This document shows, one piece after another, positions 5,730 through 24,347 of a DNA stretch of 64,000 nucleotides. Position 1 is the first letter of the stretch, and every line of letters starts with the position of its first letter. The notes under the pieces are model-generated. The model made no database searches. It was given only the letters and a program-made list of their open reading frames with translations, and had not been told where the DNA came from. This stretch comes from Fulvivirgaceae bacterium JP3-4 (lineage in GTDB: Bacteria; Bacteroidota; Bacteroidia; Cytophagales; Cyclobacteriaceae), in the NCBI GenBank assembly GCA_029309925.1, contig JARKND010000001.1, forward strand, positions 2,108,001 to 2,172,000. Direction: 5' to 3'. Both the position numbers and the translations under genes were made by a program.

Positions 5730-5936
5730 TTAAAGAGTTCCATTTATCACATTGTATCCGGCCTTCTGGATTGCCTGGATAACAGCATCCTTTGTCAGCC
5801 CGTTGTTCAATTCAATCTCTGCCTTTGTAGGAGACACTGACTTGACAGAGCCGCCAATAGCCTTTACCGTGCTTGTGACGGTCATTTGGCAATGAGGGCT
5901 TTTCATATTCGGAATCGTCAGATTTATCGTTTCCAT
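5730..5936 (-). CDS. HMA-fold protein with altered metal site (SxxC)
   Basis: A 68-residue HMA-like domain: METINLTIPNM, then KSPHCQMTV, then a normal GGSVKSVSPTKAEIELN and AVIQAIQKAGYNV. The first Cys of the usual MxCxxC is Ser13; only Cys16 remains, preceded by His15. The rest of the fold is well kept, so the change looks selected rather than decay. It may bind metal through His-Cys, or another ligand, or pair with its CxxC neighbour. It is the first gene after operator A. Confidence 0.82.
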   Translation of the reverse strand: METINLTIPNMKSPHCQMTVTSTVKAIGGSVKSVSPTKAEIELNNGLTKDAVIQAIQKAGYNVINGTL

Positions 5937-5982
5937 ATTTTTGTTGTTTTCTAAGTAAATAAACGATGTGAAGGGCCGGGAT

Positions 5983-6015
5983 GCTTTATATTATAGCAGG
6001 GACGTTTTATATAAT
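5983..6015 (-). promoter_or_regulatory. Operator A: 21-bp-spaced direct repeat
   Basis: Plus-strand copies GCTTTATATTAT (5983) and GTTTTATATAAT (6004), offset 21 bp, spacer AGCAGGGAC. It lies 46 bp before the HMA gene at 5936 and touches the stop codon of the reductase gene. Confidence 0.75.
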
Positions 6016-7058
6016 TATAAGCCGGTTTTAAGGGCAATGCCTTCCGACACAGGAAACCCCTGGCACAGCAGGATTTGACCCTCGTTCAGTTCATCATCTG
6101 TCAGTACGTGGTTCTTTCTAAGTCTCACTTCACCACTGATTAGCTTTGCCCGGCAGGTTCCGCATTGGCCTTCGGTGCAGGAGTACGGCAGTTTGATACC
6201 GTGCTCGAGTGCAGCTTGCAGAATGGATTTTCCACCCTTGACTATCACAAGTTTTTCCTCACCATTCGTCTCTATGATAATCTCGCGATCTGATAGGGTC
6301 GAGAAGTCAAAGTCCGTTTTCTTTGCGGGAACGAAAAAGATTTCCTTTCTGACCTTTGGGCGGCCGGGGCCGATCGCACGAACTGTGGTACTTACCAGAT
6401 CCATAAAACTCTCAGGTCCGCACGTGAAATACTCAGGTCGATAATCTCGTTCTGCTAAAATGCCTTTTATTATCTTTTTAGTAATTAACGGTGACAGTCG
6501 CCCTTTGTAAAAAACAGGGAAGTCTGCGGGCAGGTTTTCACCTTGCGTTAACACGTGATGAACTTTAAGTCGCGCTGGAAATTGATTCTCCAAATGATGC
6601 AATTCGTTTTTGAAGATTATGCGATCATAGGACTTGTTTGAGTAAATCAATGATATCGTGGAACGGGGTTCATCTCTTAAAACACTTTTGATGATTGACA
6701 GCATGGGCGTGATCCCGCTTCCTGCAGCAAACATTATTAGGTGTCGCTTAATTTCGGGTGAAGTCTCAATGGTGAATTTACCAGACACTTCTTGTAAATC
6801 GACTGCGATCGGTTCATGTGTATTAAAAAGATAATTGGATACAAGCCCGTCAGTAACTGATCTGACGGTTATTCCCAACTCTTGTTCATGTGGCGCAGTG
6901 TGAAATGAATAAGTACGAGTGACACTTGTACCGTTTATCTGAAAACTGAAAAGTCCATGTTGACCTGGCATGTATCCATGAAACGTTTCGGGGCGCTTAA
7001 AGTAAACGCTAATCGAGTCGGCCGTAGGCTTTTCAGTTCTCAGTATTTGTATCTGCAT
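6015..7058 (-). CDS. FAD/NAD(P)H oxidoreductase with C-terminal 2Fe-2S ferredoxin domain
   Basis: A 347-residue flavoprotein reductase of the phenol-hydroxylase/PaaE type. In order: FAD-binding barrel with RTYSFHTAP; NAD(P)-binding domain with AAGSGITPMLS and CGPESFM; plant-type ferredoxin domain with SCTEGQCGTCRAKL and a final LLCQG, giving the four Cys ligands. ATG at 7058 is used; the frame opens two codons earlier at a TTG. It has its own operator (B), so it is controlled with the metal/electrophile genes; it may supply electrons for reductive detoxification. No oxygenase partner is seen nearby. Confidence 0.85.
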   Translation of the reverse strand: MQIQILRTEKPTADSISVYFKRPETFHGYMPGQHGLFSFQINGTSVTRTYSFHTAPHEQELGITVRSVTDGLVSNYLFNTHEPIAVDLQEVSGKFTIETSPEIKRHLIMFAAGSGITPMLSIIKSVLRDEPRSTISLIYSNKSYDRIIFKNELHHLENQFPARLKVHHVLTQGENLPADFPVFYKGRLSPLITKKIIKGILAERDYRPEYFTCGPESFMDLVSTTVRAIGPGRPKVRKEIFFVPAKKTDFDFSTLSDREIIIETNGEEKLVIVKGGKSILQAALEHGIKLPYSCTEGQCGTCRAKLISGEVRLRKNHVLTDDELNEGQILLCQGFPVSEGIALKTGL

Positions 7059-7088
7059 ATTCAAACTAACGCAAATCGCTCAAATTGA

Positions 7089-7121
7089 CTTTTGCAGATT
7101 AGCAGGTATGATTTATATAAT
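7089..7121 (-). promoter_or_regulatory. Operator B: 21-bp-spaced direct repeat
   Basis: Copies CTTTTGCAGATT (7089, the weaker) and GATTTATATAAT (7110), offset 21 bp, spacer AGCAGGTAT, 30 bp before the reductase ATG. A sequence close to the Bacteroidota -7 box (TTAGTTTG on the minus strand) lies 19 bp downstream. Confidence 0.7.
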
Positions 7122-7149
7122 TATCAGCTTGCACACGATTCCTTTGAGT

Positions 7150-7722
7150 CTATGCGCACTTTTTTACAACGGCCGTTCTGGAAAATAAGACGGCACGGGA
7201 TAGCCACAGAAAGCGTTCAATAAAGACATTTACAGATTCACCAAAGTTCTCATCGATGAGCGTGCCGTCTTCACGAAACTTTGAATCCACCCCTGGAACG
7301 ATTAACATCTGTGGGCTTCCAATTCCCATGAGTCCGTAGATGAGCGTTTGGAGTTGGAGAGCTGCTCTCATACCGCCAAACGCACCAGGCGAAGCTGTCA
7401 CTATGCCAAATACCTTTTCAGTCTGCTTTGGGAAGTGATCGAGAAAATTCTTTAAAGCAGGAGAGTAGCTTCCGTTGTATTCGGGAGTAACAAGAACAAA
7501 GGCATCAGCCTCGAATACGCGTTTCACAACTTCTGAGCGATCTGAAGGCGTAGTACCGGTACCCTGACATACATTTTCAACCGCACCCCATTGGTATTCT
7601 TTGATATCAATCATTCCAACGCTCAACTCTGCAAACGCGCTTAATTGATTAGTCAGATGTTTTGCAACGCGTTTGGTTAGGCTCGAAGTGCGAGGACTGC
7701 CTGAGATTATTTCGATTCTCAT
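7150..7722 (-). CDS. NADPH-dependent FMN reductase family protein (flavodoxin fold)
   Basis: A 190-residue flavodoxin-like protein: GSPRTSSLT phosphate-binding loop at residues 8-16, TPEYNGSYSPALKNFLD in the middle (the family signature), and a glycine-rich ASPGAFGGMRAA loop. Relatives reduce quinones, azo dyes or chromate with NADPH. Its ATG overlaps the DoxX stop by 4 bp (ATGA), so it is translationally coupled as the last gene of the SnoaL-DoxX-reductase unit behind operator C. A role in quinone or electrophile reduction is inferred from family and neighbours. Confidence 0.85.
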   Translation of the reverse strand: MRIEIISGSPRTSSLTKRVAKHLTNQLSAFAELSVGMIDIKEYQWGAVENVCQGTGTTPSDRSEVVKRVFEADAFVLVTPEYNGSYSPALKNFLDHFPKQTEKVFGIVTASPGAFGGMRAALQLQTLIYGLMGIGSPQMLIVPGVDSKFREDGTLIDENFGESVNVFIERFLWLSRAVLFSRTAVVKKCA

Positions 7723-8195
7723 ATTTGTGTGGGTTTCGGATGGACGTTTGTTTTGGTTTTATTGAAGATTTGATGGTCGATCGAATAAGACCCAGCACCA
7801 TTGATAGACAGCATGAACGCGAGCGCTAAAACAAGCAGATGGAATTCAAAGCCTTCACCAGATTGCGTCCCTGACCAGTTCATAAAGAAACCGTTGCTGA
7901 GGTGAGTTGTAAAAATTGCCCCAAGCATAATGACGATCAAGGCACTTGAGAGAAACCTTGTTAATAATCCGGCAACAAGGGCTACCATTCCAGCACTTTC
8001 AAGAATTATTATTCCTACAGCAAGTGCATAGGGAAGACCGATCACGCCAGTGAAGAATCCTACTGTGCCGTCAAAACCGTGGCCACCAAACCATCCAAAA
8101 AGCTTCTGTGCGCCATGGGCTGCTACGACAAGGCCAAGCGCGACTCGTGTGATCAAAAGCGAAACGTCAAGTTTTCTGTTTAAAGTTGTTGTCAT
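7719..8195 (-). CDS. DoxX family membrane protein
   Basis: ATG at 8195 yields 158 residues with four hydrophobic segments and the DoxX pattern: LLITRVALGLVVAAHGAQKLFGWFGG near the start, later GHGFDGTVGFF and a late LLVLALAFMLSI. A longer frame to 8291 overlaps the SnoaL gene and is not preferred; 8195 leaves an 8-bp gap. DoxX proteins are membrane redox-associated proteins, often next to quinone or thiol stress enzymes. Middle gene of the operator C unit. Confidence 0.85.
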   Translation of the reverse strand: MTTTLNRKLDVSLLITRVALGLVVAAHGAQKLFGWFGGHGFDGTVGFFTGVIGLPYALAVGIIILESAGMVALVAGLLTRFLSSALIVIMLGAIFTTHLSNGFFMNWSGTQSGEGFEFHLLVLALAFMLSINGAGSYSIDHQIFNKTKTNVHPKPTQI

Positions 8196-8203
8196 GATTG
8201 AGC

Positions 8204-8563
8204 TTAGTTTCCGTAGAAGAATTGTTCTTTTATGATTTGTCCATCTTTCCAGTGTTGAACGGATACTTGCGTATACTTGCGCACACCCCACTCTTTATGT
8301 GTGTAGTCGTAGCTCCAGATAACAAATGATGCACTGCCATTGATGGCCATGCCTTCCACAGCTGCACCCCGGAACTCCGTTACATTTCCAAGGAATTCAA
8401 TTTCGCGCAGGCGATTTGCTGCCTTTCCCTTTGTACCAGGCTGTGAATTTTCCTGCATCTCAACATCATTGTGATAGTATTTGTCAAAGGCCTCGAGAGC
8501 CTTGCCGCTTAGAACAAGCGAGTTAAGATCATTAAGTGATTTTTCGATTTGTGATTCAGTCAT
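8204..8563 (-). CDS. SnoaL-like (NTF2-fold) protein
   Basis: A 119-residue cone-shaped NTF2-type domain: LVLSGKALEAFDKYYHNDVEMQEN, then a central GNVTEF and the late WKDGQIIKEQFFY. Families of this kind act as isomerases, cyclases or dehydratases, or bind small molecules; the substrate cannot be told. It is the first gene after operator C and precedes DoxX by 8 bp. A second, exported SnoaL-like protein is encoded at 15161-15655 in the same regulon. Confidence 0.8.
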   Translation of the reverse strand: MTESQIEKSLNDLNSLVLSGKALEAFDKYYHNDVEMQENSQPGTKGKAANRLREIEFLGNVTEFRGAAVEGMAINGSASFVIWSYDYTHKEWGVRKYTQVSVQHWKDGQIIKEQFFYGN

Positions 8564-8609: not shown

Positions 8610-8642
8610 GATTTGTATTTAAGCCGGGGCGATTTATATAAT
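8610..8642 (-). promoter_or_regulatory. Operator C: 21-bp-spaced direct repeat
   Basis: Copies GATTTGTATTTA (8610) and GATTTATATAAT (8631), offset 21 bp, spacer AGCCGGGGC, 46 bp before the SnoaL ATG. One of the clearest sites. Confidence 0.8.
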
Positions 8643-8659
8643 CCCTTGATCAGCGTTAA

Positions 8660-8783: not shown

Positions 8784-8816
8784 CACTTATACTTAAGCAG
8801 GTAGGATTTATAACAT
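8784..8816 (-). promoter_or_regulatory. Operator D: 21-bp-spaced direct repeat
   Basis: Copies CACTTATACTTA (8784) and GATTTATAACAT (8805), offset 21 bp, spacer AGCAGGTAG. It sits directly after the stop of the cyclase-YHS gene and 31 bp before the 30-residue ORF. TACTTTTA, near the -7 consensus, lies 20 bp downstream. Confidence 0.75.
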
Positions 8817-9476
8817 TTACATGTCCTCGCTAGGAGCTAGAAACTGCTCTGGTGCCGCGAGGAAAAGCAATTTGCAATGCTCACCACAAAAATGATAGGT
8901 GACGCCTGAGTGATCTGCAAACTGACTCGGCTTTGTCCGATCGATATGCATATGGCAAACTGGATCGATATAAACTTCATTTGCGAGCATTGGTATCAGT
9001 TCGAATAATTCGATCTGAGTCATTACATTTTTGAGTTTTCGAATACCGATTGAACGAAAGAGCTGCTGTGACTCTGGAGGAAGCTGAGTAAAAAAGTTTG
9101 AGGAACAGATTATTTCGCCTCTGCACGCAACATTCATGATACGCGCTGCAACATTAATCGTAGAACCAAACAGATTATTATTCTCGATTACTATCTCACC
9201 ATAATGGAGACCCGCATGAATAGATAAAAAATGTTGCTCTTCACGAGTAAGCGTATTTAACTTCCTTGCTGTTTGAAGTAGATCAACTGCGTTTTCTGCA
9301 ATCATCACCACCTGGTCTCCAATTCGCTGCATCACTTTCGCAGTACCATGAAGCGCAGTGTCAACGATCTCCATATATTTACCCACAATCTTAGCGGCCG
9401 ATGCACCGCCATGTACGTCAGTCATAGCGGTGTATCCGGTGAGGTCGGCCATTAAGATTGCAATTTCCTTTTCCAC
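8817..9476 (-). CDS. Class III nucleotide cyclase domain fused to YHS metal-binding domain
   Basis: Residues 1-160 are a class III adenylate/guanylate cyclase homology domain: MADLTGYT with metal-binding Asp11, IGDQVVMIAEN with Asp54, and INVAARIM with Asn108 and Arg112. Residues 168-213 are a YHS domain: YIDPVCHMH, YHFCGEHC and the AAPEQFL end; Cys174, Cys197 and Cys201 are candidate ligands. The start is GTG. It follows the TolC gene by 32 bp, as last gene of the RND operon. Inference: metal occupancy of the YHS domain may control cyclic nucleotide output. A non-catalytic binding role is possible. Confidence 0.85.
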   Translation of the reverse strand: MEKEIAILMADLTGYTAMTDVHGGASAAKIVGKYMEIVDTALHGTAKVMQRIGDQVVMIAENAVDLLQTARKLNTLTREEQHFLSIHAGLHYGEIVIENNNLFGSTINVAARIMNVACRGEIICSSNFFTQLPPESQQLFRSIGIRKLKNVMTQIELFELIPMLANEVYIDPVCHMHIDRTKPSQFADHSGVTYHFCGEHCKLLFLAAPEQFLAPSEDM

Positions 9477-9508: not shown

Positions 9509-10846
9509 CTATTGGAGTAGACCCAATGCTTTGTCCAACTGAAGTTTGGCGATTTTTACATTGTAGACAGTATTGAGATGATTCATCTTCGCATCCGTTA
9601 AAGCCAATTCAGCATCTGATAGTTCCAGACGTGAACTCATTCCATTTCTGTAGCGGTCATTTATAATGTTAAAGTTCATTTCCGCAGCGTATACAGTTTT
9701 TTCATTCACGGAAAGACGTTGAATCATTTCGTTTAAGTTATTCTGAAGGGTCATGATTTGTGTGTTCGCCCTTTCGGTAGCATCTTGCAGGCGAAGTGCC
9801 TCAGTTTGGACTCGAATATTTGACTGGCGAATTTTCGCATTGACTCTGTTCCCGGCAAAGATTGGGAGGTTTGCCTGAAGTCCAACAAATGAAGTTCTTG
9901 GCCAACGATATGAGTCAAATTTCCTATCATCTGATTGCGCTTGTAATTGATAAGCTCCAACCAAAGATAGCGTGGGAAGCCTTTGAGCTCGGCTTTGGCT
10001 CAGTAGGTTTTGATTTAGTGCTACCTTAAGTTTCTGTGATTGAATATCAGGTCTGTTCTGAATTGCGTCCGTGTAAAGAGTTTCTACCGCGGCAAAATAT
10101 CGGCTTTCAGTATCGTGCTTCAAACTATCTGTTAGTTCGAGTGAGTCAATACTTTCGATCCCCAGCAACTGCCGAAGTTGGATTATAATTACCTTGTGTT
10201 GGTTTTCCAAATATGAGATTGACGTTCTCAGATTTTCAACGGCAATGAAATTTCTCAGCGTATCCACCTTCAAACTTTTGCCTTGAAGTAGGAGAACTCT
10301 TGAGTCTTCCAATGATTTCAAGTTTCTTTGAAGACTTTGTTCATTCAGAGCAATGCTCTCCTTTACGAGCAGGGCTTGATAATAGGTAGCCGTCACACTC
10401 AAGTTTAGGTTTGCTCTTGCATCTTTGACATCAAGTGCTTTTATGGATTCAGAGATCCGCGCAGCTTTGATCTGGCGTCTTGCCGCCTCCGATACGATAG
10501 GTTGTTGCAGCGTAACGTAGGTGTTGAACGCATTTTTTCCACCGACTGCAACATCCACCACTGGTTGGCTGTCGTTCCCGGTGAATGCACCAGGCATAAA
10601 AATTACTTGTCTATCTATGTAATATGAATATGACCCGCCCATCGTCACCGATGGAAGCATGCTTGCCTGGGCGATCTTCGTTTCTTCGCGAAGCGAATTG
10701 GTCTCTAACGTCTCAGCTTTTAGAGCTTTGTTATTTTCTGCCGCAAGCTTAAGGGCATCCTGAAGCGAAAGCTTCCGGGTCTGCGCCTGAACGTTGACGC
10801 TGGCGATAAAGGCACTTACCAGCAACCACTTTGTTATTGTTTTCAT
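9509..10846 (-). CDS. TolC-family outer membrane efflux protein
   Basis: ATG at 10846 gives 445 residues starting with a signal peptide (MKTITKWLLVSAFIASVNVQAQ). A longer frame to 10990 runs into the RND gene and is rejected. The rest shows the two-fold repeated coiled-coil pattern of outer membrane efflux proteins (SLQDALKLAAENNKAL at the start; ALTDAKMNHLNTVYNVKIAKLQLDKALG at the end). It forms the outer channel of the tripartite pump encoded just upstream; the gap to the RND gene is 13 bp. Confidence 0.9.
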   Translation of the reverse strand: MKTITKWLLVSAFIASVNVQAQTRKLSLQDALKLAAENNKALKAETLETNSLREETKIAQASMLPSVTMGGSYSYYIDRQVIFMPGAFTGNDSQPVVDVAVGGKNAFNTYVTLQQPIVSEAARRQIKAARISESIKALDVKDARANLNLSVTATYYQALLVKESIALNEQSLQRNLKSLEDSRVLLLQGKSLKVDTLRNFIAVENLRTSISYLENQHKVIIIQLRQLLGIESIDSLELTDSLKHDTESRYFAAVETLYTDAIQNRPDIQSQKLKVALNQNLLSQSRAQRLPTLSLVGAYQLQAQSDDRKFDSYRWPRTSFVGLQANLPIFAGNRVNAKIRQSNIRVQTEALRLQDATERANTQIMTLQNNLNEMIQRLSVNEKTVYAAEMNFNIINDRYRNGMSSRLELSDAELALTDAKMNHLNTVYNVKIAKLQLDKALGLLQ

Positions 10847-10859
10847 GTTTTTTTTGAAA

Positions 10860-13800
10860 TTATTGGTTGATAGTTTCCGTAACCAGTTCAGTTTCGTCCG
10901 CGACTTCTTTCTTGCGCTTCGAAGAAGATAGATACGAGTAAACTGCAGGTATAATGAAGAGAGTAAGGATTCCTGCGAAGATGAGTCCACCTGCGATTAC
11001 AATTCCCAGCGATTGCCGCGAGTTGCTCGTAAGTGCAATGGGCAGTGCTCCAAAAATCATCGCAAGCGAGGTCATAAGGATTGGTCTAAATCTTTGTTCT
11101 GCAGCCTGGATTGCAGCCTCAAACTTGGTGAGACCGGTGCTCTTCAGGTGATTAGCGAACTCTACGATCAGGATACCATTCTTAGTGATCAATCCTATCA
11201 GCGTGATGATCCCGATCTGGCTGAATACGTTCAGACTTTGGCTGAACCAGTCGAGACTTAGTAATGCACCTGCAATCGCCATTGGAACAGTTAGCATAAT
11301 GATCATCGGATCACGAAGGCTCTCAAACTGCGCTGCGAGAATCATGTATATCAAGAGCAACGCGAGGAGTAACGTGAACGAAAGATTGCCTTGGCTTTCA
11401 GTATAATCCCGTGATTGACCTGCAAGCGTTGTCTTGAAGCTTTGTCCAAGGACTTCCGCTTTGATGCGTTCCATTTCCTTAATGCCTTCGTCAAGGCTTA
11501 CACCAGGAGCAAGGCCAGCTGAAATCGTTGCTGACGTATACTGATCATATCTGTAGATGGCAGCAGGACTGATTCCTTCCTCAATTGTAACAAGGTTATC
11601 GAGTGATATCATTTGCCCGTTGGTGGATCGAACATAGATGGACCTCAAATCCCCTATATCGTTCCGATTGATTCTTTCCACTTGGCCAATCACTTCGTAC
11701 TGCCTGTCATTTCTAAGGAAATAACCATAGCGCTGACCGGAGAGTGATAGTTGAAGCGCTCGTGCAACCTCCTGAATCGATACGCCCATGAGGGCAGCTT
11801 TTTGCCGATCGATATTGATCTTGAGCTCGGGTTTGTTAATCTTCAAATCACTATCGACAAACATCAGCTTTGAACTTTGCCTTACTGCGTTCAAGAATTT
11901 TGGAAGAATATTTGAAATGCTGTCAAGACTCGGAGCCTGGAGAACATATTGGACAGGTTGTCCACCACCGTAGCGTGTTCCAATTGTTGGAGGCATGTAT
12001 GGGAACAAAAGGATGTTCCTGAATTGTCCGGAGGCTGCACCATATTGGTAGTAAAGTTGCTGAGCAGTGACGCTTCTTTCTTTCGGATCTTTCAGGTAAA
12101 TACTCTGCACTGCAACATTGACGGGAGCAGGGGCGGGGATGAACGAAATCGCCACCATTGAATAGGTTTGATAGAGTCCATCTGTATTATCGTTTACGTA
12201 GTGCCCGACTTCAGTCATATTTTTTTTCATGAAGTCATAGGATACACCTTCCGGAGCAATTGCGATGAGCATCATGTTTGATCTGTCTTCAATTGGTGCA
12301 AGTTCTGAGGGGAGCTTTTGCCCCAGGTAGAAGATTAAACCACCGGTTCCGATAAGGAACACCCATGCGACCCAGCGGAATTTCATAAACTTGTTCAGGA
12401 CGTTTGCATATCCGTTATTAAGTCGAACAAAGAAGGGTTCTGTTACCCGATGCAACCAAGTCGGTTTATCATGACGTTTGAGTAAATAAGCACTGAGCAT
12501 GGGGGAGAGTGTTAATGCTACGAATGCCGAGACCAGTACGGAACCAGAAACCACGATGGCGAATTCTTTGAAGAGCTGTCCACTAATTCCGCCCATGAAA
12601 ATGATTGGGAGAAATACGGCTGCCAAAGTGATGGTAGTGGAGATTACTGCAAAGTATATTTCTTTTGATCCGGCAAATGCTGCCTGAACGGGACTCATTC
12701 CTTCCTCAACTTTCTTATAGATATTTTCCAATACAACAATCGCATCATCTACAACAAGTCCGATGGCCAGTACCAGTCCGAGCAAAGTCAGAACGTTGAT
12801 CGAGAAGCCTGCTAGATACATAATGAAGAAGGCGGAAAGGATAGACACTGGAATTGCAAGAACAGGTATGATCGTTGAGCGCCAGTCACGAAGGAACAGG
12901 AAGATGATGATCACGACCAGACCAAAGGCAATGAACAATGTTTCCTCGACCTCCTTGATTGATTCTCTTACTGGTTTTGTAAAGTCAAAGCCTACAATAA
13001 GACGGTATTCTTTCGGAATATCTTTACGAAGCTGATCAAGGCGTTTGTAAAATTCATCAACAACTTCAATCGCATTCGCGCCACGTTGAATTTGTATCGC
13101 AACGCCAACGCCAACGCGATCTGCCTTATCGGTTCCGTTTATGATCGCATTGCGTTCGTTCAACTCACCCAGTTCCGCGTGACCAATGTCCTTGAGTCTG
13201 ATAACCGAATGTGCGGTATGCTTAACAATCATCTCATTGAACTCCTCAGCAGTAGTTAAACGCCCAAGAGTACGCACGCTTAATTCGTTGCTTTCTCCTT
13301 CAATTCTGCCGGATGGCAAGTCCATGTTTTCTTTTTGAAGCGCAATGCGAATGTCCTCAGGGGTCAATTGGAATGTGGCAAGCTTCACAGGGTCAAAGCG
13401 AAGACGCATCGCGTATTTATGCTCACCAACAATGCTAACGCGCTGAATGCCGGGAATAGACTGCATGCGTTCTTTGATCACCGTTGAAGCGAGATGTGAA
13501 ACCTCCTTAATGTCTCTTGTATCACTCTCAACTTCGAGGAATGCAACAAGGTTATCAGGGGAACTCGCTTTTTCAACAATTGGAGGATCAACGTCCGCAG
13601 GAAGTTGATTTTTTGCCTTTGAGACTTTATCCCTGACGTCATTCAATGCGTCTTCAAGATCGATATCACGATTGAATTCAATTGAGATGATACTGACCTG
13701 TTCGCGTGATTCGGAGGAGATCGTTCTAACACCATTTGCTTCTGCGATCGATTCCTCGAGGGGCTTGGTGATCTTTGACGCGATTACGTCAGGACTTGCT

Positions 13801-13958: not shown

Positions 13959-13964
13959 GATTAG

Positions 13965-15065: not shown

Positions 15066-15098
15066 GGTTTGTATTTAAACAGGTAGGGTTTATAAAGT
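15066..15098 (-). promoter_or_regulatory. Operator E: 21-bp-spaced direct repeat
   Basis: Copies GGTTTGTATTTA (15066) and GGTTTATAAAGT (15087), offset 21 bp, spacer AACAGGTAG, 33 bp before the adaptor ATG. It lies just downstream of the terminator ending the CopA operon. Confidence 0.8.
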
Positions 15099-15114
15099 TT
15101 ACTGCAAGAAAAAA

Positions 15115-15655: not shown

Positions 15656-15661
15656 AAATTC

Positions 15662-16522: not shown

Positions 16523-16525
16523 GGA

Positions 16526-16936: not shown

Positions 16937-18558
16937 CTTTTTATAAAATATAGATCTTTGATTCCTTCCCGGCTGAATAGCATCAGCGTTTTTCCGTCAG
17001 CTCCTTTTTCAAAACGCAAGATATTGCCACCAGCAAATTCCGCGTAATACAAGTCGTTACCGAGGGACGTTAATGGCGAATGCATGATTCTTAAGAACGA
17101 AAGCCGCAGGGTGTTTTGTTTTTTAGTGATGCGGTAAGTCTTTTTCAATTCAGGACTATAGTAACGGCCTTTCAATTCAATTGGATGCGAGTGAACCTCC
17201 ATCGAGGCAGAATCAATCTTTATTAAATGGAGATTGCCATCAGCTCTATCCACAGTTAAAGCATCATCGCTGAAGTTATAACTACTTTCATAATTATCCT
17301 GCTTTGAATAATAGCCACCTTTCTCATGCTTTAGAGGCGCATAGTATCCGTGCATGGTCGGAGAGGATTTCAATATTCCATTATCATATTTAATGAACCT
17401 TGTTATGCTTCCAGAAACGGTGTCGAGATATGCCCCCTGGAGCTTTGAAGAGGCATGTGCGGCAGATTTAAGTTCATTGTCAGAGAGCCACGTTGTTCTC
17501 AATTTGTTGTTGCTCAGAACAATCCCGGCAATGTCAAACATGTTCTTACTTAGATCCCAATAATCTCCAGCATTAGAAAAAATTATGATTGACAACTTTT
17601 CTTTTGGAAAGCGCACAATATCAGCTCTGAAGCCGGGGTCGCTACCAAAGTGACTAACGACTTCATAGCCTTTTAGCTGATAGTGTTCCAGCCCTCGCTT
17701 ATATGACTTTAATGGAGGGACTACGCCATCTGGACTTAAAAGCAAATCAAGCGATATGAATGAGTGTGAGCTTTGCAGGTTTTGTTCGAGCTTTACTGCA
17801 TCCCTTAGTGACATCATCACACCAGTGGATCCAATTGCAGGAATGAAGCGCTTATTCTTTTTGTATTTCCCTACTGAGTTATAATGTCCTACTGCGTCTG
17901 GTGACTTCTTGTCGTTATTGAATATTCGTGAATCTGACAGGCCAAGTTTTCCGAATACTTCCGATTGCATGAAATCGGCAAATGACTTTTTGCTCACACG
18001 TTCCGCGATCAGCGCAAGAAGCACGTAGTTTGAGTTCACATATTCATGCCGGGTACCTGGTTGAAAGTTCAAAGCCTTTTGGATCTTGATCATGTCGAAA
18101 ACCGATTTTGGGTCATAATGCTTTTCACCTTTGAGCGTCATTCCTACCAATGTAAATCCATCCCTTAGGCCGCTTGTGTGATGAAGCAGGTGTTTGATTT
18201 GTATAGAGGGAAGATGAGAGAGCTCAGGCAGATATTTTGAAATGGGATCAGTTAATGACAGGGCACCCTTTTGTTCAAGTGCTGTTATTCCTATTGCGGT
18301 AAACTGTTTCGATACCGATGCGATCCAAAACGAAGTTCGGTCGTTTGCCTTAATTCCGCCTGCAACATCCGACATGCCCACAGTCTTAGAATAAATTTCA
18401 TTTCCATCCTTAACAATTGCTACAGCTATGCCAGGCTTTTTCTGTGAATCCCAATTAGCGAACAGAGAGTCAACTGAATCCTTTTGCTTAGACGTCAACG
18501 GTTGCGCGATTGCGCTTGCTGTAGCCAACAGCATAAGCAATACGAAGAAAGATTTCAC
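16933..18558 (-). CDS. Exported serine hydrolase, beta-lactamase/PBP4* family
   Basis: 541 residues: signal peptide (MKSFFVLLMLLATASAIAQ), then a class C beta-lactamase-like domain with the nucleophile motif SVSK (Ser81, Lys84) and a YVNSNY segment fitting the YxN motif, then a C-terminal beta-rich domain (LKGRYYSPELKKTYRI) as in many esterase/peptidase members. It starts at GTG, 23 bp after the CopA-like gene. It may cleave esters, D-peptides or lactams; nothing shows beta-lactam resistance. Confidence 0.85.
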   Translation of the reverse strand: MKSFFVLLMLLATASAIAQPLTSKQKDSVDSLFANWDSQKKPGIAVAIVKDGNEIYSKTVGMSDVAGGIKANDRTSFWIASVSKQFTAIGITALEQKGALSLTDPISKYLPELSHLPSIQIKHLLHHTSGLRDGFTLVGMTLKGEKHYDPKSVFDMIKIQKALNFQPGTRHEYVNSNYVLLALIAERVSKKSFADFMQSEVFGKLGLSDSRIFNNDKKSPDAVGHYNSVGKYKKNKRFIPAIGSTGVMMSLRDAVKLEQNLQSSHSFISLDLLLSPDGVVPPLKSYKRGLEHYQLKGYEVVSHFGSDPGFRADIVRFPKEKLSIIIFSNAGDYWDLSKNMFDIAGIVLSNNKLRTTWLSDNELKSAAHASSKLQGAYLDTVSGSITRFIKYDNGILKSSPTMHGYYAPLKHEKGGYYSKQDNYESSYNFSDDALTVDRADGNLHLIKIDSASMEVHSHPIELKGRYYSPELKKTYRITKKQNTLRLSFLRIMHSPLTSLGNDLYYAEFAGGNILRFEKGADGKTLMLFSREGIKDLYFIKR

Positions 18559-18581
18559 AGAGATTTTATTTTTGGTTTAAC

Positions 18582-20837
18582 TTAAATCTTCGCTGCTCTT
18601 AATCTTAAGCTATTGCCGACAACACTCACTGAACTCAAAGCCATTGCTGCGCCTGCAATCATTGGGTCAAGGAGAAATCCGTTAACAGGATACAAGACAC
18701 CAGCAGCCAAGGGAATCCCAATAACGTTGTAGATGAAAGCCCAGAAAAGGTTTTGCTTGATTCCCATAACAGTCTTGCTCGAAAGATTCAACGCTCTTGG
18801 AATTGACTGGAGATCCGAAGTGATGAGTGTCATCTTGGCAACATCCATTGCAATGTCTGAACCTTTTCCCATTGCTATGCTAACGTCAGCCTCAGCTAAT
18901 GCATGCGAGTCGTTTATTCCATCACCCACCATCGCCACAACTTTCCCTTTCAATTGAAGTTCCTTTACAAATTTCGCTTTGTCAGAAGGCAACACCTCAG
19001 CCTTATAATGCTTCAGACCAACCTGATTTGCAACAGCCTTTGCAGTTTGTTCATTATCACCCGTCAGCATGTACACATCGATACCTTTCCTTAGAAGTGA
19101 TTCGATAGCAGCTTTGGAAGTAGCTTTTACTTTGTCAGCAATTGCGATAACAGCCAGAACATTTTGGTTGTCGGAGAAATAAACAACGGTCTTTGCTTCG
19201 GATTGTAATTTTGATGCGAGATCAGAAAGGTGACTTGAAATAGCAACCTTGTTCTCTTCAACTAGCTTTCGGTTTCCAACGAAATATGTTTTTGCGTCAA
19301 TGCTGCCTTTTACACCGCGTGCTGTAATACTTTCGAATTCATCAAGTGAAAGCGAACTAGTTGATTCAGCTTTCAAAGTGTTTACAACCGCATCAGCGAG
19401 GGGATGTTCTGACTGTGATTCCAACGTATACAAAATTTGCTTTTCATTGGTGTAGCCGTCATTGGTTGCCCACACGATATCAGTAACTACTGGCTTTCCT
19501 TCTGTTATTGTTCCTGTCTTGTCCAGGATAACTGCGTTCACTTTGTGAGCGAGCTCAAGGCTTTCTGCGTCTTTAATGAGAATGTTGTTTTCTGCGCCTT
19601 TGCCGACACCAACCATAATCGCTGTAGGAGTCGCTAACCCTAGAGCACACGGACATGCGATCACTAGAACTGTGACGGAATTCATCAATGCATGGGTGAA
19701 AGCATTATCGCCACCAATAACCATCCACACGATGAATGTCAGGATTGCAATGCCGATAACGATCGGAACAAAGATGCCAGCGATCTTATCAACAAGTTTT
19801 TGTACAGGAGCTTTGCTACCCTGAGCTTGTTGAACCATTTTAATGATCTGGGCAAGGATAGTATCACCACCAACTTTCTCAGCTTCAAATTGGAAACTCC
19901 CTTTTTGATTGATTGTTCCTGCAAATACTTTTTCTCCGGCTTTCTTTTCAACAGCCACTGGTTCTCCGGAGATCATGCTTTCATCAACGAATGATGATCC
20001 ATTTGTTACAATTCCGTCCACCGGAATCTTTTCTCCCGGTCGCACCTGAATTTTATAGCCCACTTTTACAACCGCGATAGGAATTTCTTGTTCAACACCA
20101 TCGATGATTGCTCTAACTGTTTTTGGCTGTAACCCCATCAGCTTTTTAATGGCAGACGATGTATTCGATTTAGCTTTCTCTTCTAAGAGTTTTCCAAGTG
20201 AAATGAATGCAACCACTACTGCAGCAGCCTCAAAGTACACATGCGCGTGCATGCCTCTTGAATGCCAGAAGTCGGGGAAGAATGTATTGAATACACTGAA
20301 CACAAATGCAATGCCGGTGGATAATGCAACGAGGGTATCCATATTTGCTTTGCCATGGCGGCCTTGCTTCCAGGCGTTGATGAAGAAATTACGTCCAAAG
20401 TAAAAGACCACAGGCGCGGTTAAAGCCATTGATATATAAGAACCGTATGGCATGTCCATAAAGAACATTCCGATGATCACTACTGGGATCGAAAGAATCG
20501 AAGACCAGATCGTCCGCTGCTTAACAGCTTCGAAATGTTTCCGCTGTGCTTCTTCCTGAACAGCTTGCGGATCTTCAACATCTACTACAAGGTCATATCC
20601 GATTGATCTCACGGAGTTCCGAAGATCAGCTGGCTGAGCCAAATGAGAGTCATACTCAACCCAGGCCGTTTGGTTGGCGAAATTGACGCCAGCGTCTTTC
20701 ACTCCGGCCGTAGATTTCAGCATCGATTCGACACTTACCGCACAGGCAGCGCAGGTCATCTCAAGGACCGGAAACGTTTCGCGCTTATATTGGCCATTGG
20801 GCGCCTTTTTATATTGTATTTCAGTTGTTGCAGTCAT
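18582..20837 (-). CDS. copA: Copper-exporting P1B-type ATPase (CopA-like)
   Basis: A 751-residue P1B-1 ATPase. One N-terminal HMA domain (EMTCAACAVS, Cys29 and Cys32), TGE-type actuator loop (ISGEPVAV), membrane metal site CPCALG (395-397), phosphorylation loop DKTGTITEG (Asp439), SEHPLADAV (the HP motif) and GDGINDSHAL hinge. CPC with the HP motif indicates Cu+ (or Ag+) export from the cytoplasm. First gene of a five-gene unit (CopA, serine hydrolase, ABM, PhzF, SnoaL-like) behind operator F. Confidence 0.93.
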   Translation of the reverse strand: MTATTEIQYKKAPNGQYKRETFPVLEMTCAACAVSVESMLKSTAGVKDAGVNFANQTAWVEYDSHLAQPADLRNSVRSIGYDLVVDVEDPQAVQEEAQRKHFEAVKQRTIWSSILSIPVVIIGMFFMDMPYGSYISMALTAPVVFYFGRNFFINAWKQGRHGKANMDTLVALSTGIAFVFSVFNTFFPDFWHSRGMHAHVYFEAAAVVVAFISLGKLLEEKAKSNTSSAIKKLMGLQPKTVRAIIDGVEQEIPIAVVKVGYKIQVRPGEKIPVDGIVTNGSSFVDESMISGEPVAVEKKAGEKVFAGTINQKGSFQFEAEKVGGDTILAQIIKMVQQAQGSKAPVQKLVDKIAGIFVPIVIGIAILTFIVWMVIGGDNAFTHALMNSVTVLVIACPCALGLATPTAIMVGVGKGAENNILIKDAESLELAHKVNAVILDKTGTITEGKPVVTDIVWATNDGYTNEKQILYTLESQSEHPLADAVVNTLKAESTSSLSLDEFESITARGVKGSIDAKTYFVGNRKLVEENKVAISSHLSDLASKLQSEAKTVVYFSDNQNVLAVIAIADKVKATSKAAIESLLRKGIDVYMLTGDNEQTAKAVANQVGLKHYKAEVLPSDKAKFVKELQLKGKVVAMVGDGINDSHALAEADVSIAMGKGSDIAMDVAKMTLITSDLQSIPRALNLSSKTVMGIKQNLFWAFIYNVIGIPLAAGVLYPVNGFLLDPMIAGAAMALSSVSVVGNSLRLRAAKI

Positions 20838-20893: not shown

Positions 20894-20926
20894 GTTTTAC
20901 ACTTTACCCGCTTTGATTTACATGAT
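20894..20926 (-). promoter_or_regulatory. Operator F: 21-bp-spaced direct repeat
   Basis: Copies GTTTTACACTTT (20894) and GATTTACATGAT (20915), offset 21 bp, spacer ACCCGCTTT, 56 bp before the copA ATG. The spacer departs most from the common pattern except for site J. Confidence 0.75.
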
Positions 20927-20933
20927 TCCCGGC

Positions 20934-22427
20934 TTAATAATACTCGTATGTGGCTGTTTCAGAAGCTCCGGGGCCGCTGACGGTTCTTTTGCTCACCTTG
21001 CCGTCTGTAGTGAATTCGTAAGAGAAATAATATTGTAAGTCACGCCCATGCCCCTCGAATCGATAAGAGGTTGGTAGTGTCTTCTGTGTCTTTATATTTG
21101 GTAGCACCTCCACCATTGGGAATGGATTTTCCTTATGGAGATAACTATCAAATGTTTCTGTTGTAAGCAGAGTCGGTTCCTCTTCGGCCGATGCTCCGGG
21201 AGTATATACAAGCTTTTTATATAAGTTTCCAGTAGGGTAATAAAGCAGCAACACGATTGAAGTATTTATGAAAGTTCCATCTGGCTGTCCATCGAAGATC
21301 TGATATCCGGCCAAACGGGCATGCTCATCGTAGTCAAAAAACGTGTAGCCTTCCATGACTCCATTTTCAATTCGTTGCGCCAAAAAAATTCTGGCGTCAA
21401 CGTAAGAGTAGAGAACGTCATGACCAGGAGCAGTGTTAATGCGGGTGAGCTGGCTCCATTGGTTGTAATAGTATGTGTCCGTCCCGGTTTTTTCGTATGG
21501 TGTAAAGGTCTGCCAATTCACTTTTGATACCCTCGCATTCTCATCATACTCATAAGTTTTTTTTAATCCCCAGTTACCACCTCTAACATCGTATCCCTTC
21601 GGGAGACCAGAGAGCTCATCATCTAGGACAGACATTGAGTCTGTTCGTGTAGCTCCAATTACAAGATTGCCAGTGGTTTCCCGTAGGCTGAATTTTATCG
21701 ACTTATTACCTTTGAGTTGATTGTCATTAATTGCGCGAACCTTAAACGTTAACATATGAGAGCTTGAAGCGGTAAGCGTGATAATGTTGTTGATAAAAGC
21801 AGGTTCTGAGATATAATGTGTTCCATACGTGGCATCACTTGAACTGGCTTCGATTATCACAGTTCCATTCGCGCTGTTCGATGCACTCACATTTACTTTC
21901 ACCTCATGCCAGGAAGAGGAATTCTCTACAATGCTTTCACTTGCTACGCTGAAGTTCACTTCACTTTGTTGTGCCCCGGTACTGGGATCATCATCCACAA
22001 GTGTTAGTTTGAATTTGTCGTTCTGTCCCAGGATAAACTCGTTGTGAAGACGTGTTAGGCTGAATTCAACTTGCTTCGTTCCGGTAAACTTTGAATCGTT
22101 ATTCGGTCTCAGCCTGATTACAGCCTGGGAATCGTTTTTCTTCACGCTTATAATAATGATGCCTGAAGTTGTAGAGGGAACACTGGTGAAGTATTTCACT
22201 TTGCTTGTGTCGACAAGCACGCGAATACTTGCGTCATATTTGAAAGACTGGCTGAAAGTGAGGACAATACTTTTCTCACCATCATTCTCATTTGCGCTGT
22301 CAGATTGAACCTTAAATTGAACTGTTGGTATCGATTCGAACGGATCTCCTAGGTCGTCATCATCACAGCCAAGAAAATAAAATGCGAGCAATGAGATGCC
22401 CACAAGTTTTACAATTAGTTTTTTCAT
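20934..22427 (-). CDS. Calx-beta domain lipoprotein with RHS/YD-like C-terminal region
   Basis: 497 residues with a lipoprotein signal (LLAFYFLGC followed by DDDD). Residues 35-150 and 155-270 look like two Calx-beta domains (IVLTFSQSFKYDASIRV; FKLTLVDDDP; later KSIKFSLRETTGNLVIG ending SVLDDE). The C-terminal 220 residues contain repeated Tyr-rich strands (YEYDENARVSKVNW, YYYNQWSQLTRI), as in YD-repeat-like surface proteins. Probably surface- or periplasm-anchored. It has its own operator (G), which is unexpected for a structural lipoprotein and ties it to the stress regulon. Confidence 0.75.
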   Translation of the reverse strand: MKKLIVKLVGISLLAFYFLGCDDDDLGDPFESIPTVQFKVQSDSANENDGEKSIVLTFSQSFKYDASIRVLVDTSKVKYFTSVPSTTSGIIIISVKKNDSQAVIRLRPNNDSKFTGTKQVEFSLTRLHNEFILGQNDKFKLTLVDDDPSTGAQQSEVNFSVASESIVENSSSWHEVKVNVSASNSANGTVIIEASSSDATYGTHYISEPAFINNIITLTASSSHMLTFKVRAINDNQLKGNKSIKFSLRETTGNLVIGATRTDSMSVLDDELSGLPKGYDVRGGNWGLKKTYEYDENARVSKVNWQTFTPYEKTGTDTYYYNQWSQLTRINTAPGHDVLYSYVDARIFLAQRIENGVMEGYTFFDYDEHARLAGYQIFDGQPDGTFINTSIVLLLYYPTGNLYKKLVYTPGASAEEEPTLLTTETFDSYLHKENPFPMVEVLPNIKTQKTLPTSYRFEGHGRDLQYYFSYEFTTDGKVSKRTVSGPGASETATYEYY

Positions 22428-22467
22428 ATCAAAAATTTCCTACAGAAACGGGTTGACAATTAACAGC

Positions 22468-22500
22468 GGTTTGCATTTAAACCGGATTGACTTATAAAAT
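22468..22500 (-). promoter_or_regulatory. Operator G: 21-bp-spaced direct repeat
   Basis: Copies GGTTTGCATTTA (22468) and GACTTATAAAAT (22489), offset 21 bp, spacer AACCGGATT, 40 bp before the Calx-beta lipoprotein ATG. Confidence 0.8.
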
Positions 22501-22517
22501 TGTCAGCTTGTTAATGT

Positions 22518-22649
22518 TCACCTGACTTTTGATCTGAGATACGCGAGCACAGCTTTGTGATCAAAACGAATATTCAGGTAATAGGAGAGAATCAACGCTA
22601 TTGCAAAGCCTCCCGCCAATAGCAGTAAGGCACATATCTTGGTAATCAT
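22518..22649 (-). CDS. 43-residue membrane protein coupled to thioredoxin (small ORF)
   Basis: ATG at 22649 to TGA at 22518-22520 encodes 43 residues: a hydrophobic N-terminal helix (ITKICALLLLAGGFAIALILSYY) followed by a basic tail (NIRFDHKAVLAYLRSKVR). The ATG overlaps the thioredoxin stop codon (ATGA), which indicates translational coupling and makes a chance ORF less likely. It is the last gene of the operator H unit. It might anchor or localise the thioredoxin, but this is only inference. Confidence 0.6.
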   Translation of the reverse strand: MITKICALLLLAGGFAIALILSYYLNIRFDHKAVLAYLRSKVR

Positions 22650-22963
22650 AGCAGAGACTTTACTTTTTGGTCTAAGACCGACTTTGGTACCGCACCGATT
22701 ACTCGATCGACAAGTTTACCATCTTTAAAAAACAGAAACGTTGGAAAGTTTCTGATGCCAAACCTTGCAGCTGTGTTGGGATTTGAGTCGATGTCTAGTT
22801 TTCCTACAATCGCTTTACCATCAACTTCTTTAGCTATAAGTTCAACGACAGGGGACATCATCTTACAAGGCCCACACCACTCTGCGCTAAAGTCGAGAAG
22901 CAATGGTTTTTGCGAAGAAAGGATTGTATTAATGTTTTCGTCTGTTACATCAATTGCTTTCAT
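22646..22963 (-). CDS. Thioredoxin
   Basis: A 105-residue classic thioredoxin: active site AEWCGPCKMM with Cys30 and Cys33, cis-Pro segment IRNFPTFLFFKDGK, no signal peptide, so cytoplasmic. It reduces protein disulfides; in copper or electrophile stress it would repair oxidised thiols. It has its own operator (H) and is coupled to a small membrane protein. Confidence 0.93.
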   Translation of the reverse strand: MKAIDVTDENINTILSSQKPLLLDFSAEWCGPCKMMSPVVELIAKEVDGKAIVGKLDIDSNPNTAARFGIRNFPTFLFFKDGKLVDRVIGAVPKSVLDQKVKSLL

Positions 22964-23005
22964 AAAAAGTATTTTGATGCAATTAACGTGACAGACTTAA
23001 CGGGC

Positions 23006-23038
23006 GATTTGCACTTTGGAGGGTAAGGTTTACAAGAT
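23006..23038 (-). promoter_or_regulatory. Operator H: 21-bp-spaced direct repeat
   Basis: Copies GATTTGCACTTT (23006) and GGTTTACAAGAT (23027), offset 21 bp, spacer GGAGGGTAA, 42 bp before the thioredoxin ATG. Confidence 0.78.
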
Positions 23039-23045
23039 TTAAAGA

Positions 23046-23621
23046 TTAGCTGTTAGCGTGACTTGAAAGTTTCTGCTTTGATGCCCTTACGTCTTTGAAA
23101 TGAGAGGGTGACAACCCTGTCAGCTCTTTGAACTGCCTTGACAGGTGGTTGATACTGCTGAAGCCGGTGATGTATGCGATCTCGGTGAGCGTGAATTCTG
23201 TGTAAACCAATAGCTCTTTTACTTTCTCAAGGCGTTTTGCAATAATATACTTTTCAAGAGTGACACCTTCCAGTTCAGTAAACAACTCACTTATCGAGTC
23301 GTAATTCATGTGTAGCGTCTCCGAGAGGAGTGCGGAGAAACGAAGCTTTGAATCGTATCGAACATTTTCCGCGAAAACTTCATTAATCAGATCTTTAGCT
23401 TGATTAACGATTCGCATTTGTCGATTTGAGATCATCTCAAAGCCGTTTTCATCAAGGAATGTTTCAATTTGGTCAAAACCTTCTTTCGACACATCATCAA
23501 GCAATGAAAGCTTTCCCAGACTGATATTGTTGACGTGATACCCCAGTGCCGCGATCCCTTCCTTGATAACGGAGATACAACGATCACACACCATTCCTCT
23601 AATCAATATTTCGGATGCCAT
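23046..23621 (-). CDS. AraC-family regulator with N-terminal HMA-like domain (copy 1)
   Basis: 191 residues. Residues 3-65 resemble an HMA metal-binding domain: ILIRGMVCDRCISVIK (Cys12, Cys15) and a later FDQIETFLDENGFEMI; residues 90-180 are an AraC-type double helix-turn-helix (second HTH LTEIAYITGFSSINHLSRQF, then LTGLSPSHFK). This joins a soft-metal sensor to a DNA-binding domain in one protein. Operator I precedes the gene, suggesting autoregulation. Likely binds the 21-bp-spaced direct repeats as a dimer or together with copy 2 (inference). Confidence 0.85.
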   Translation of the reverse strand: MASEILIRGMVCDRCISVIKEGIAALGYHVNNISLGKLSLLDDVSKEGFDQIETFLDENGFEMISNRQMRIVNQAKDLINEVFAENVRYDSKLRFSALLSETLHMNYDSISELFTELEGVTLEKYIIAKRLEKVKELLVYTEFTLTEIAYITGFSSINHLSRQFKELTGLSPSHFKDVRASKQKLSSHANS

Positions 23622-23668
23622 AAGCTTTGAGTTTATAATATCAAAGTACGTGTGACAGTAGTGAGTCG

Positions 23669-23701
23669 TTGTTATAAAATTCCCGGTAAGACTTATAGAG
23701 T
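23669..23701 (-). promoter_or_regulatory. Operator I: 21-bp-spaced direct repeat
   Basis: Copies TTGTTATAAAAT (23669) and GACTTATAGAGT (23690), offset 21 bp, spacer TCCCGGTAA, 47 bp before the first AraC-HMA ATG. TACTTTG on the minus strand, 20 bp downstream, resembles a -7 box. Confidence 0.7.
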
Positions 23702-23702
23702 T

Positions 23703-24281
23703 TTAAGAAATCGAATCAAGTGGCTTACGGTTCTGATCAATGTTTCTTGATTTCTTCATTTCTGACGGAGTGAACCCGGTGATCTTTTTAAACTGCCCGG
23801 AAAGGTGAGCGACACTGCTGTATCCGAGCTTATCTGCAATTTCACTTAGATTAAGTTCGTCATAAAATAATAGCTCTTTTACTTTTTCTATTTTTTGACG
23901 AATGATGTATTGTTCAAGGGTGACCCCCTCGACACTTGAAAAGAGATTACTTAAATAGTTGTACTCATAGTGCATCTCTTCGGCCAGCACATCAGACCAG
24001 TTAAATTTCAGATCCACTTTATTGCTGTGATGGATCATCTGAATGATCTTGTTTTTGATGGCTTCAATAAGCCTTGCCTTCCGGTCGTCAATACGCTCAA
24101 ATCCGAGATCAACCAAAGCCGAATCAAGCTTGTCTTGTTGTGCGTCAGACAGGCTATCTTCTTTTATCGTAACTTCTCCCAACGCCACTTTTTCAGGATG
24201 AAGCCCTTGTCGCTCCAGTTCCTGCTTCACAACCATGATACATCGGTTGCAAACCATATTCTTTATATAAAGAGTAGTCAT
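23703..24281 (-). CDS. AraC-family regulator with N-terminal HMA-like domain (copy 2)
   Basis: 192 residues, a paralogue of the neighbouring gene with the same layout: HMA-like start (LYIKNMVCNRCIMVVKQ, Cys11 and Cys14; later LDSALVDLGFERI), helical linker, and C-terminal AraC HTH (LSEIADKLGYSSVAHLSGQF; ITGFTPSEMK). The two proteins differ at many positions, so the duplication is old and they may sense different ligands or form a heteromer. Operator J precedes the gene. It is the rightmost gene of the regulon, next to the recombination module. Confidence 0.85.
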   Translation of the reverse strand: MTTLYIKNMVCNRCIMVVKQELERQGLHPEKVALGEVTIKEDSLSDAQQDKLDSALVDLGFERIDDRKARLIEAIKNKIIQMIHHSNKVDLKFNWSDVLAEEMHYEYNYLSNLFSSVEGVTLEQYIIRQKIEKVKELLFYDELNLSEIADKLGYSSVAHLSGQFKKITGFTPSEMKKSRNIDQNRKPLDSIS

Positions 24282-24314
24282 AGCTCTGCGAAGATCGGCA
24301 ATTTAGCCGTTATC

Positions 24315-24347
24315 GGTTTATAGAATTTTCCTTAACACTTACAGAAT
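24315..24347 (-). promoter_or_regulatory. Operator J: 21-bp-spaced direct repeat
   Basis: Copies GGTTTATAGAAT (24315) and CACTTACAGAAT (24336), offset 21 bp, 33 bp before the second AraC-HMA ATG. The two halves resemble each other closely, while the spacer (TTTCCTTAA) departs from the usual pattern. Confidence 0.75.

Follow-up and report, generated by a model that had tools for sequence, protein, structure and literature searches.

Direct repeats before an island of copper-type genes in a Fulvivirgaceae genome: candidate operators of an HMA-AraC regulator family of Bacteroidota

A stretch of 64,000 nucleotides from the 5.8 Mb genome of Fulvivirgaceae bacterium JP3-4, hereafter the window (G000:C1:2108001-2172000, in contig JARKND010000001.1), carries an island of metal-type genes in which ten similar elements, each made of two direct repeats, lie upstream of genes. 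Which protein reads these elements, and in response to which signal? The answer favored here, with a probability of roughly 70%, is that they are operators of the HMA-AraC protein, which would sense copper (or silver) in the cytosol of Bacteroidota as a one-component system; the evidence is drawn from sequence analysis.

The ten elements

All ten elements were located, in each case on the minus strand, which is also the strand of the gene that follows. They are listed below with window coordinates and the score, in bits, obtained in a leave-one-out test; "-7" refers to the promoter box and "R2" to the longer search model, both described in later sections.

Site 1, 5983..6016 (-): upstream of the genes for two HMA proteins (5730-5936, 5512-5718); -7-like box at about 5956-5963; 24.3
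Site 2, 7089..7122 (-): upstream of the 2Fe-2S/FAD reductase gene; -7-like box TTAGTTTG; 34.7
Site 3, 8610..8643 (-): upstream of the SnoaL-DoxX-FMN reductase genes; poor -7 box; not recovered by R2; 25.4
Site 4, 8784..8817 (-): upstream of the open reading frame (ORF) of a 30-aa hydrophobic peptide (start 8752); 28.7
Site 5, 15066..15099 (-): upstream of the adaptor-RND-TolC-like operon; not recovered by R2; 36.2
Site 6, 20894..20927 (-): upstream of the copA unit; top window match of R2; 28.5
Site 7, 22468..22501 (-): upstream of the gene for a 497-aa protein; 31.8
Site 8, 23006..23039 (-): upstream of the thioredoxin gene; 24.7
Site 9, 23669..23702 (-): between the two AraC genes, upstream of the second; TACTTTG box; 14.1
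Site 10, 24315..24348 (-): upstream of the first AraC gene; the weakest; 6.5

Each element consists of two near-identical boxes, the second placed 21 bp after the first. Self-identity, evaluated for offsets from 8 to 25, is highest at 21 bp both within the ten window elements (0.56) and in 46 sites of other genomes (0.60), and does not exceed 0.41 at the remaining offsets. Position check and self-identity peak thus bear out a preliminary description of this DNA, which had reported ten 21-bp direct repeats in a single orientation. The same description placed all of them 30-56 bp before a start codon: this holds for nine sites, when the start of the reductase gene is taken as the ATG at 7058, while the tenth, at 8784, is best read together with the 30-aa peptide ORF.

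A 41-column matrix built from the ten elements scores them at 26.0-43.8 bits, the ten top scores of the 64 kb. The next-best score in the window is 11.3 bits and the maximum over 20 first-order shuffles is 14.4 bits, shuffled sequence being, here and below, an imperfect imitation of real promoters. In the leave-one-out test eight of the ten sites are clearly strong independently of their own contribution (24.3-36.2 bits), and the site at 23669 is marginal.

The HMA-AraC regulator

The window has two regulator genes:

HMA-AraC regulator 1, 23703..24281 (-): 192 aa, NMVCNRC motif and AraC DNA-binding domain
HMA-AraC regulator 2, 23046..23621 (-): 191 aa, GMVCDRC motif and AraC DNA-binding domain

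A third paralogue is found in this genome at a second copA locus. In both window regulators the AraC-type DNA-binding domain is recognized by Pfam HTH_18 (67.6 and 63.9 bits; cut-off 33.6); no MerR, CsoR or BlaI-type model is present among the domain matches of the regulators, and no NCBIfam model exceeds its cut-off. A 52-row profile of the family matches, by its positions 2-61, the HMA domains of ATP7A, ATP7B and CopZ (E about 0.001 for single domains) and, by its positions 72-176, the DNA-binding domains of AraC (2k9s), XylR, SoxS and YesN. Structure prediction (pLDDT 88.1) gives a beta-alpha-beta-beta-alpha-beta fold and, after it, a bundle with two helix-turn-helix motifs. Profile and model together point to a CopZ/ATP7-like HMA domain fused to an AraC-type DNA-binding domain. 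The motif MVCxRC (M9, V10, C11, R13, C14), whose CxxC falls in the first loop of this fold, is invariant in all rows of alignments A2 and A4, an invariance due in part to selection: the rows of A2 come from one branch of the family, indicated below as CxxC, and the search for A4 used the MVCxRC pattern.

Further sites in the same genome

A model built from the ten window sites, indicated as R1, was used to scan this genome (150 of 2619 candidates scored). It produced 11 matches at E <= 10, namely the ten window sites and C4:314553: the scan is specific. The additional site sits between the HMA-AraC gene of the second locus (83% identical) and the second copA, and 19 bp after it the sequence TATCTTTG is found. 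None of the 11 matches adjoins the ten other AraC-family matches of this genome, and a site family common to AraC proteins in general was ruled out on this ground. With a 62-column matrix, no site above 14 bits was found in the 32.6 kb around those ten genes, nor in the window from 27001 to 64000.

R2 is a longer model, of 62 positions, trained on 46 sites, none of them from this genome, where 150 of 845 candidates were scored. It yielded 14 matches at E <= 10, comprising eight window sites, the site of the second copA, two new promoters (both E < 0.05) and three more (E 0.209, 0.488 and 2.9); the training sites had been chosen with a matrix of this genome's 11 sites, so that the recovery of window sites is not fully independent. 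The first new promoter, C1:2100341 (L266:8340), located 7.6 kb to the left of the window, precedes the gene of a HYC_CC_PP protein, followed by RND (reading as two ORFs), TolC-like and CusB-like genes, assigned by eye: a Cus-like cluster. The second, C1:2410053 (L265:8053), precedes the gene of a His-rich 453-aa protein with no Pfam match, beside a two-component system recognized by eye. The ten elements are therefore not the complete set: 13 sites are likely in this genome, and the regulon likely extends beyond the island.

Association of sites and regulator in other genomes

Among the matches listed, 91 of 146 genomes from the same order (E <= 1e-20) and 104 of 197 from the class (E <= 1e-30) contain HMA-AraC genes. 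Cytophagales, Flavobacteriales, Chitinophagales, Sphingobacteriales and Bacteroidales are all represented in the best 80 of 594 relatives, as are one Thalassovita and one Ignavibacteria, both metagenome bins.

Sites are enriched around these genes. Sixty neighborhoods from the order draw, mostly its best matches, contain 24 sites above 16 bits, against 1.2 expected from shuffles; the 80 neighborhoods of the best 80 of 594 relatives contain 23, against 1.8 expected, at least one contig being common to the two sets. When promoters of homologues of seven island genes were analyzed, 60 out of 142 regions scored above 10 bits (1.4 expected; 1 on the opposite strand); one of the regions is the second copA of this genome, and a few sites are counted for two regions. 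Regions above 10 bits include 33 of 63 for copA and 16 of 54 for CopZ-like HMA genes. A recurrent gene order is HMA-AraC, site, copA, site, CopZ-like HMA gene, and in many genera the presumed sites stand upstream of copA and CopZ-like genes. An origin of the elements as chance AT-rich repeats was ruled out by the comparison of matrix scores with shuffles in the window, in the HMA-AraC neighborhoods and in the homologue promoters.

At the level of whole genomes, R1 at E <= 0.5 over the 146 genomes gave many matches near chance level, and the order-level draw of R2 includes genomes that supplied training sites; the results therefore rest on the class draw. There, among the matches listed, 67 of the 197 genomes have an R2 match at E <= 0.002, and HMA-AraC is present in 63 of these 67, against 41 of the remaining 130 genomes (Fisher 1.9e-18); both 67 and 63 include this genome, at least two genomes (G033, G060) gave training sites, and some others may coincide with training loci (L090/L188 is a possible case). 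The expected co-occurrence of sites and HMA-AraC genes is therefore found.

Proximity was evaluated for the R2 matches at E < 1e-4 outside this genome. For at least 34 of the 72, an HMA-AraC gene is located no more than 5 kb away, in each of the 34 cases on the strand of the site, and at least 19 of these sites are found within 200 bp downstream of the gene; these are lower bounds, as all 72 listed sites were compared, but only with part of the listed HMA-AraC genes. For copA, all 75 listed matches outside this genome were considered: a listed strong site is found within 700 bp upstream in 21 of the 59 copA genes from genomes with the regulator and in 0 of the 16 from genomes without it (Fisher 0.0037); an earlier subset of 50 of the 75 had given 18 of 40 and 0 of 10 (Fisher 0.0085). 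Sites not close to HMA-AraC genes again precede copA-like genes (L226, L228, L248, L253, L256, L259, L264), confirmed by Pfam in L256 and L264, and recognized by eye or by copA matches in the remainder. A DUF326 protein gene is likewise found among the genes at the sites.

Could another transcription factor bind the sites, the HMA-AraC gene being a mere neighbor or co-target? Sites in genomes lacking the regulator, named in the preliminary description as an argument against it, do occur in 4 of the 67 genomes: G259, G293, G300 and G333 have strong sites, and neither HMA-AraC at E <= 1e-30 nor a full-length one in a laxer search. The two-component system beside one site of this genome, recognized by eye, would also offer a candidate. 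Against this stand the genome-level association, the adjacency at gene level, the absence of listed strong sites before copA in regulator-free genomes and the resemblance of the 21-bp direct repeat to araI; a different factor is thus very unlikely. Control of the set by the HMA-AraC proteins, as originally proposed, is supported insofar as an AraC-type operator appears to track HMA-AraC genes in other genomes, for a regulon wider than the island.

The two AraC genes had also been proposed to control themselves. For the second, sites upstream of four of ten AraC2 homologues (L089, L101, L144, L204) support the proposal and make self-control credible; for the first, preceded by the weak site 10, the case is weak. 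Where the locus bears an AraC2 gene, 12 of 17 sites have a CGG-type spacer between the boxes, against 5 of 29 other sites, in a post hoc test; the second paralogue may read this type of spacer.

Two further loci were noted. In L263:6750-7100 (G016:C220, from the order draw) an HMA-AraC gene ends after the HMA part, directly before a site and copA and near a contig end: probably an assembly effect, rather than a real loss of the DNA-binding domain. In L258 (G259:C154), from a genome with no detectable full-length HMA-AraC, a strong site (E 2.1e-7) precedes a 52-aa membrane-type ORF, and a weaker one precedes a YtxH gene behind it.

Promoter geometry

In relatives, the consensus in gene direction is AATnnTATAAATC-N8-AATTnTGTAAnA, followed after 19-20 bp by TAnnTTTG, the -7 promoter consensus of Bacteroidota, recognized with the primary sigma factor. 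Of 61 distinct sites above 9 bits, mostly from relatives and one from this genome, 46 have the TTTG of this box at offset 23, counted from the end of the 34-bp element; each other offset accounts for at most 3. The -7 stretch was not used in the site scan, and its fixed position is thus a separate observation. Bases between element and -7 box are little conserved, and no -33 consensus is seen there. Given the fixed distance in relatives, the element is, as far as sequence can tell, part of the promoter. Its downstream box presumably falls at the expected -33 position, an arrangement that fits class II activation.

The same geometry bears on what had been indicated as the main rival explanation, namely that the elements are promoters of an alternative sigma factor of the extracytoplasmic function (ECF) type. 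The recurrence of two conserved boxes, at constant distance, upstream of many genes would suit it. The boxes, however, are copies of each other, and their 21-bp offset exceeds what a -35/-10 pair would allow; a third, separate element, TAnnTTTG, occupies a fixed place downstream. ECF promoters were accordingly rejected, and retain hardly any probability.

The regulator might instead act as a repressor or apo-repressor, covering the -33 region until released by metal, since a protein bound to a downstream box that overlaps the expected -33 position could block polymerase. The lack of a -33 consensus in the spacer and the rigid -7 distance are rather those of promoters where polymerase needs the regulator, and AraC proteins are mostly activators; repression is considered quite unlikely.

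Proposed mechanism and inducing signal

Activation by the HMA-AraC regulator would proceed as follows. Cytosolic Cu(I) or Ag(I) would bind the two cysteines of the regulator; two subunits, or one dimer, would then occupy both boxes, which would lie on the same helix face, two turns apart. With the downstream box in the role of the -33 element, the regulator, once bound, would recruit RNA polymerase to the -7 box, 19-20 bp further on. Targets would be copper export (copA and the Cus-like cluster) and copper chaperones, with the RND pump, thioredoxin and redox enzymes as further targets in this island.

Besides the four genomes without detectable regulator, several observations weigh against copper-responsive HMA-AraC operators. 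The site at 24315 does not stand out alone in the leave-one-out test (6.5 bits), R2 failed to recover the sites at 8610 and 15066, with the limited independence of its training set already mentioned, and the -7 box is degenerate in most sites of the window. Neither window regulator reaches Pfam HMA (PF00403) at E <= 0.001, and a structure search with the predicted fold, which finds AraC domains strongly, returns HMA structures at E 0.2 or worse. For 38 of the 72 strong sites no HMA-AraC gene lies within 5 kb among the genes compared, and 38 of the 59 copA genes in regulator-bearing genomes have no listed strong site within 700 bp. Finally, among three plasmid loci with copper genes, described next, only one has a site above 14 bits, 68 bp before a P-type ATPase gene.

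Thirty plasmid records contain the regulator, whose relatives are named there generically (AraC family, helix-turn-helix regulator) or not at all. On three of these plasmids it adjoins genes for multicopper oxidase, cupredoxin, SCO, four-helix copper-binding protein and P-type ATPase.

The preliminary description spoke of a metal/electrophile island. With operator and regulator unchanged, the inducer could be another thiophilic metal, or electrophiles and quinones reacting with the two cysteines: CxxC pairs are able to react with electrophiles, the island holds FMN reductase, DoxX, SnoaL, PhzF and thioredoxin, and its RND permease is of the AcrB type, under the CusA/CzcA cut-off. The genes that recurrently follow the sites, however, are copA and CopZ-like HMA genes; a DUF326 protein, and the HYC_CC_PP protein before the Cus-like cluster, are also among the genes at the sites, and the three plasmids place the regulator beside copper-type genes. 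Given the recurrence of copA and CopZ-like genes, copper or silver is a more probable ligand than electrophiles, and an inducer other than copper or silver is regarded as unlikely.

Two branches of the family

A second branch of HMA-AraC proteins, indicated as SxxC, features a serine in place of the first cysteine (YMVSxRC-type motif). A copA gene is present in 23 of 43 neighborhoods of the CxxC branch and in 0 of 17 of the SxxC branch (Fisher 5.8e-5). The 17 SxxC neighborhoods (L099, L105, L108, L114-L116, L118-L120, L122, L124, L128, L130, L137, L138, L140, L142; 313 kb) contain, by the 62-column matrix, 24 sites above 14 bits, against 0.0 in shuffles; the real-DNA controls (0 in 32.6 kb, 0 in 37 kb) are small and come from one genome. 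Five further sites above 14 bits are found in L272, an SxxC-branch locus chosen for having such sites. Genes following SxxC-branch sites include those for CsbD, YtxH, BON, SOUL and ice-binding-like proteins, and this branch seems to use the same operator before stress genes.

It may tentatively be proposed, at slightly less than even odds, that HMA-AraC proteins form one Bacteroidota regulator family with a common operator, in which the CxxC branch would be a cytosolic Cu(I) sensor overlooked by surveys, and the SxxC branch would control general stress genes (CsbD, YtxH, BON, SOUL) without responding to metal. If so, the family would combine one sensor fold and one promoter architecture with two signals.

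Comparison with known systems

The closest parallel for the operator is AraC of E. coli at araI1-I2, whose half-sites have 21-bp phasing. Both systems have an AraC-type DNA-binding domain and, next to the promoter, half-sites repeated directly at a 21-bp distance. The sensor is an HMA domain here and an arabinose-binding arm in AraC; the regulon is of metal type and the promoter of the Bacteroidota -7/-33 type, in contrast to the -10/-35 promoter of AraC. SoxS, MarA and Rob likewise contact, with an AraC-type domain, a site directly adjoining the promoter, but they act as monomers on a single asymmetric box of about 20 bp, and have no metal domain. CueR, CsoR and CopY do the same job as that proposed here, one-component cytosolic copper sensing beside copA and CopZ-like genes; they are MerR, CsoR and BlaI-type proteins, respectively, to which HMA-AraC is unrelated. 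CopZ and ATP7 HMA domains share with the regulator a sequence match including the cysteine pair and, by prediction, the beta-alpha-beta-beta-alpha-beta fold; the regulator differs in its MVCxRC motif, in the fused DNA-binding domain and in scoring below the Pfam HMA threshold.

No description of an HMA-AraC copper regulon was found in the open-license literature searched, and one may exist elsewhere. In the parts consulted of a marine survey, the copper regulator homologues reported for its Bacteroidota are two-component and ECF systems only (PMC10141476). A study of Bizionia, in the portions available, describes MerR and CopY homologues without a copper site, two ArsR/SmtB proteins as candidates, and a copA arranged unlike that of other Gram-negatives, where chaperone and regulator adjoin it (PMC11213822). 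The HMA-AraC regulon, possibly the means by which this phylum detects copper, offers a candidate regulator, a DNA site, a promoter geometry and a list of targets in cultured genera; an operator model would allow the copper regulon to be read from sequence across the class.

Other genes of the island and minor observations

The remaining genes of the island are the following:

5512..5936 (-): two HMA-like (CopZ-like) proteins, 68 aa each
6015..7064 (-): 2Fe-2S/FAD/NAD reductase
7150..8563 (-): SnoaL-like protein, DoxX, FMN reductase
9509..15032 (-): TolC-like protein (by eye), RND permease (AcrB type), CusB/HlyD-type adaptor
15161..18558 (-): probable remainder of the copA unit, with SnoaL, PhzF, a small protein without Pfam match and a beta-lactamase-fold protein
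18582..20837 (-): copA, Cu(I) P-type ATPase, 610.9 bits to TIGR01511 (cut-off 397)
20934..22427 (-): 497-aa protein with a lipoprotein-like start (by eye), no Pfam or NCBIfam match
22646..22963 (-): thioredoxin

The second CopZ-like protein scores 24.6 bits with Pfam HMA, for a cut-off of 24.8, and the first has no Pfam match. The name "Calx-beta", previously given to the product of 20934-22427, was not retained: no Pfam match is found for it at E <= 0.001. The 30-aa peptide MNTTTMKDLSRIMLLAVGIVVAVLCATLVL (8660-8752, minus strand), which has a strong site of its own between the RND operon and the SnoaL gene, is a possible small membrane subunit.

At the right end of the island (24450-27161), two tyrosine recombinase-like genes and two small ORFs for excisionase-like DNA-binding proteins were recognized by eye, and their presence suggests a mobile element. 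Partial homologues of the island RND permease, 84% identical in L189 (Flavobacterium sp. WG47) and 81% in L172 (Flavobacterium shii), adjoin HMA-AraC genes in both loci; identities of this order suggest horizontal transfer of the cargo.

Two domain fusions were also noted. After the RND genes, at 8817-9476 (-), an adenylate/guanylate cyclase-like domain is joined to a C-terminal YHS domain, with a 43% identical homologue in L101. At 3952-4827 (-), an ATP-cone is fused to an Mrr-type nuclease domain, in a gene adjoining a P-type ATPase-like gene (1409-4003, by eye).

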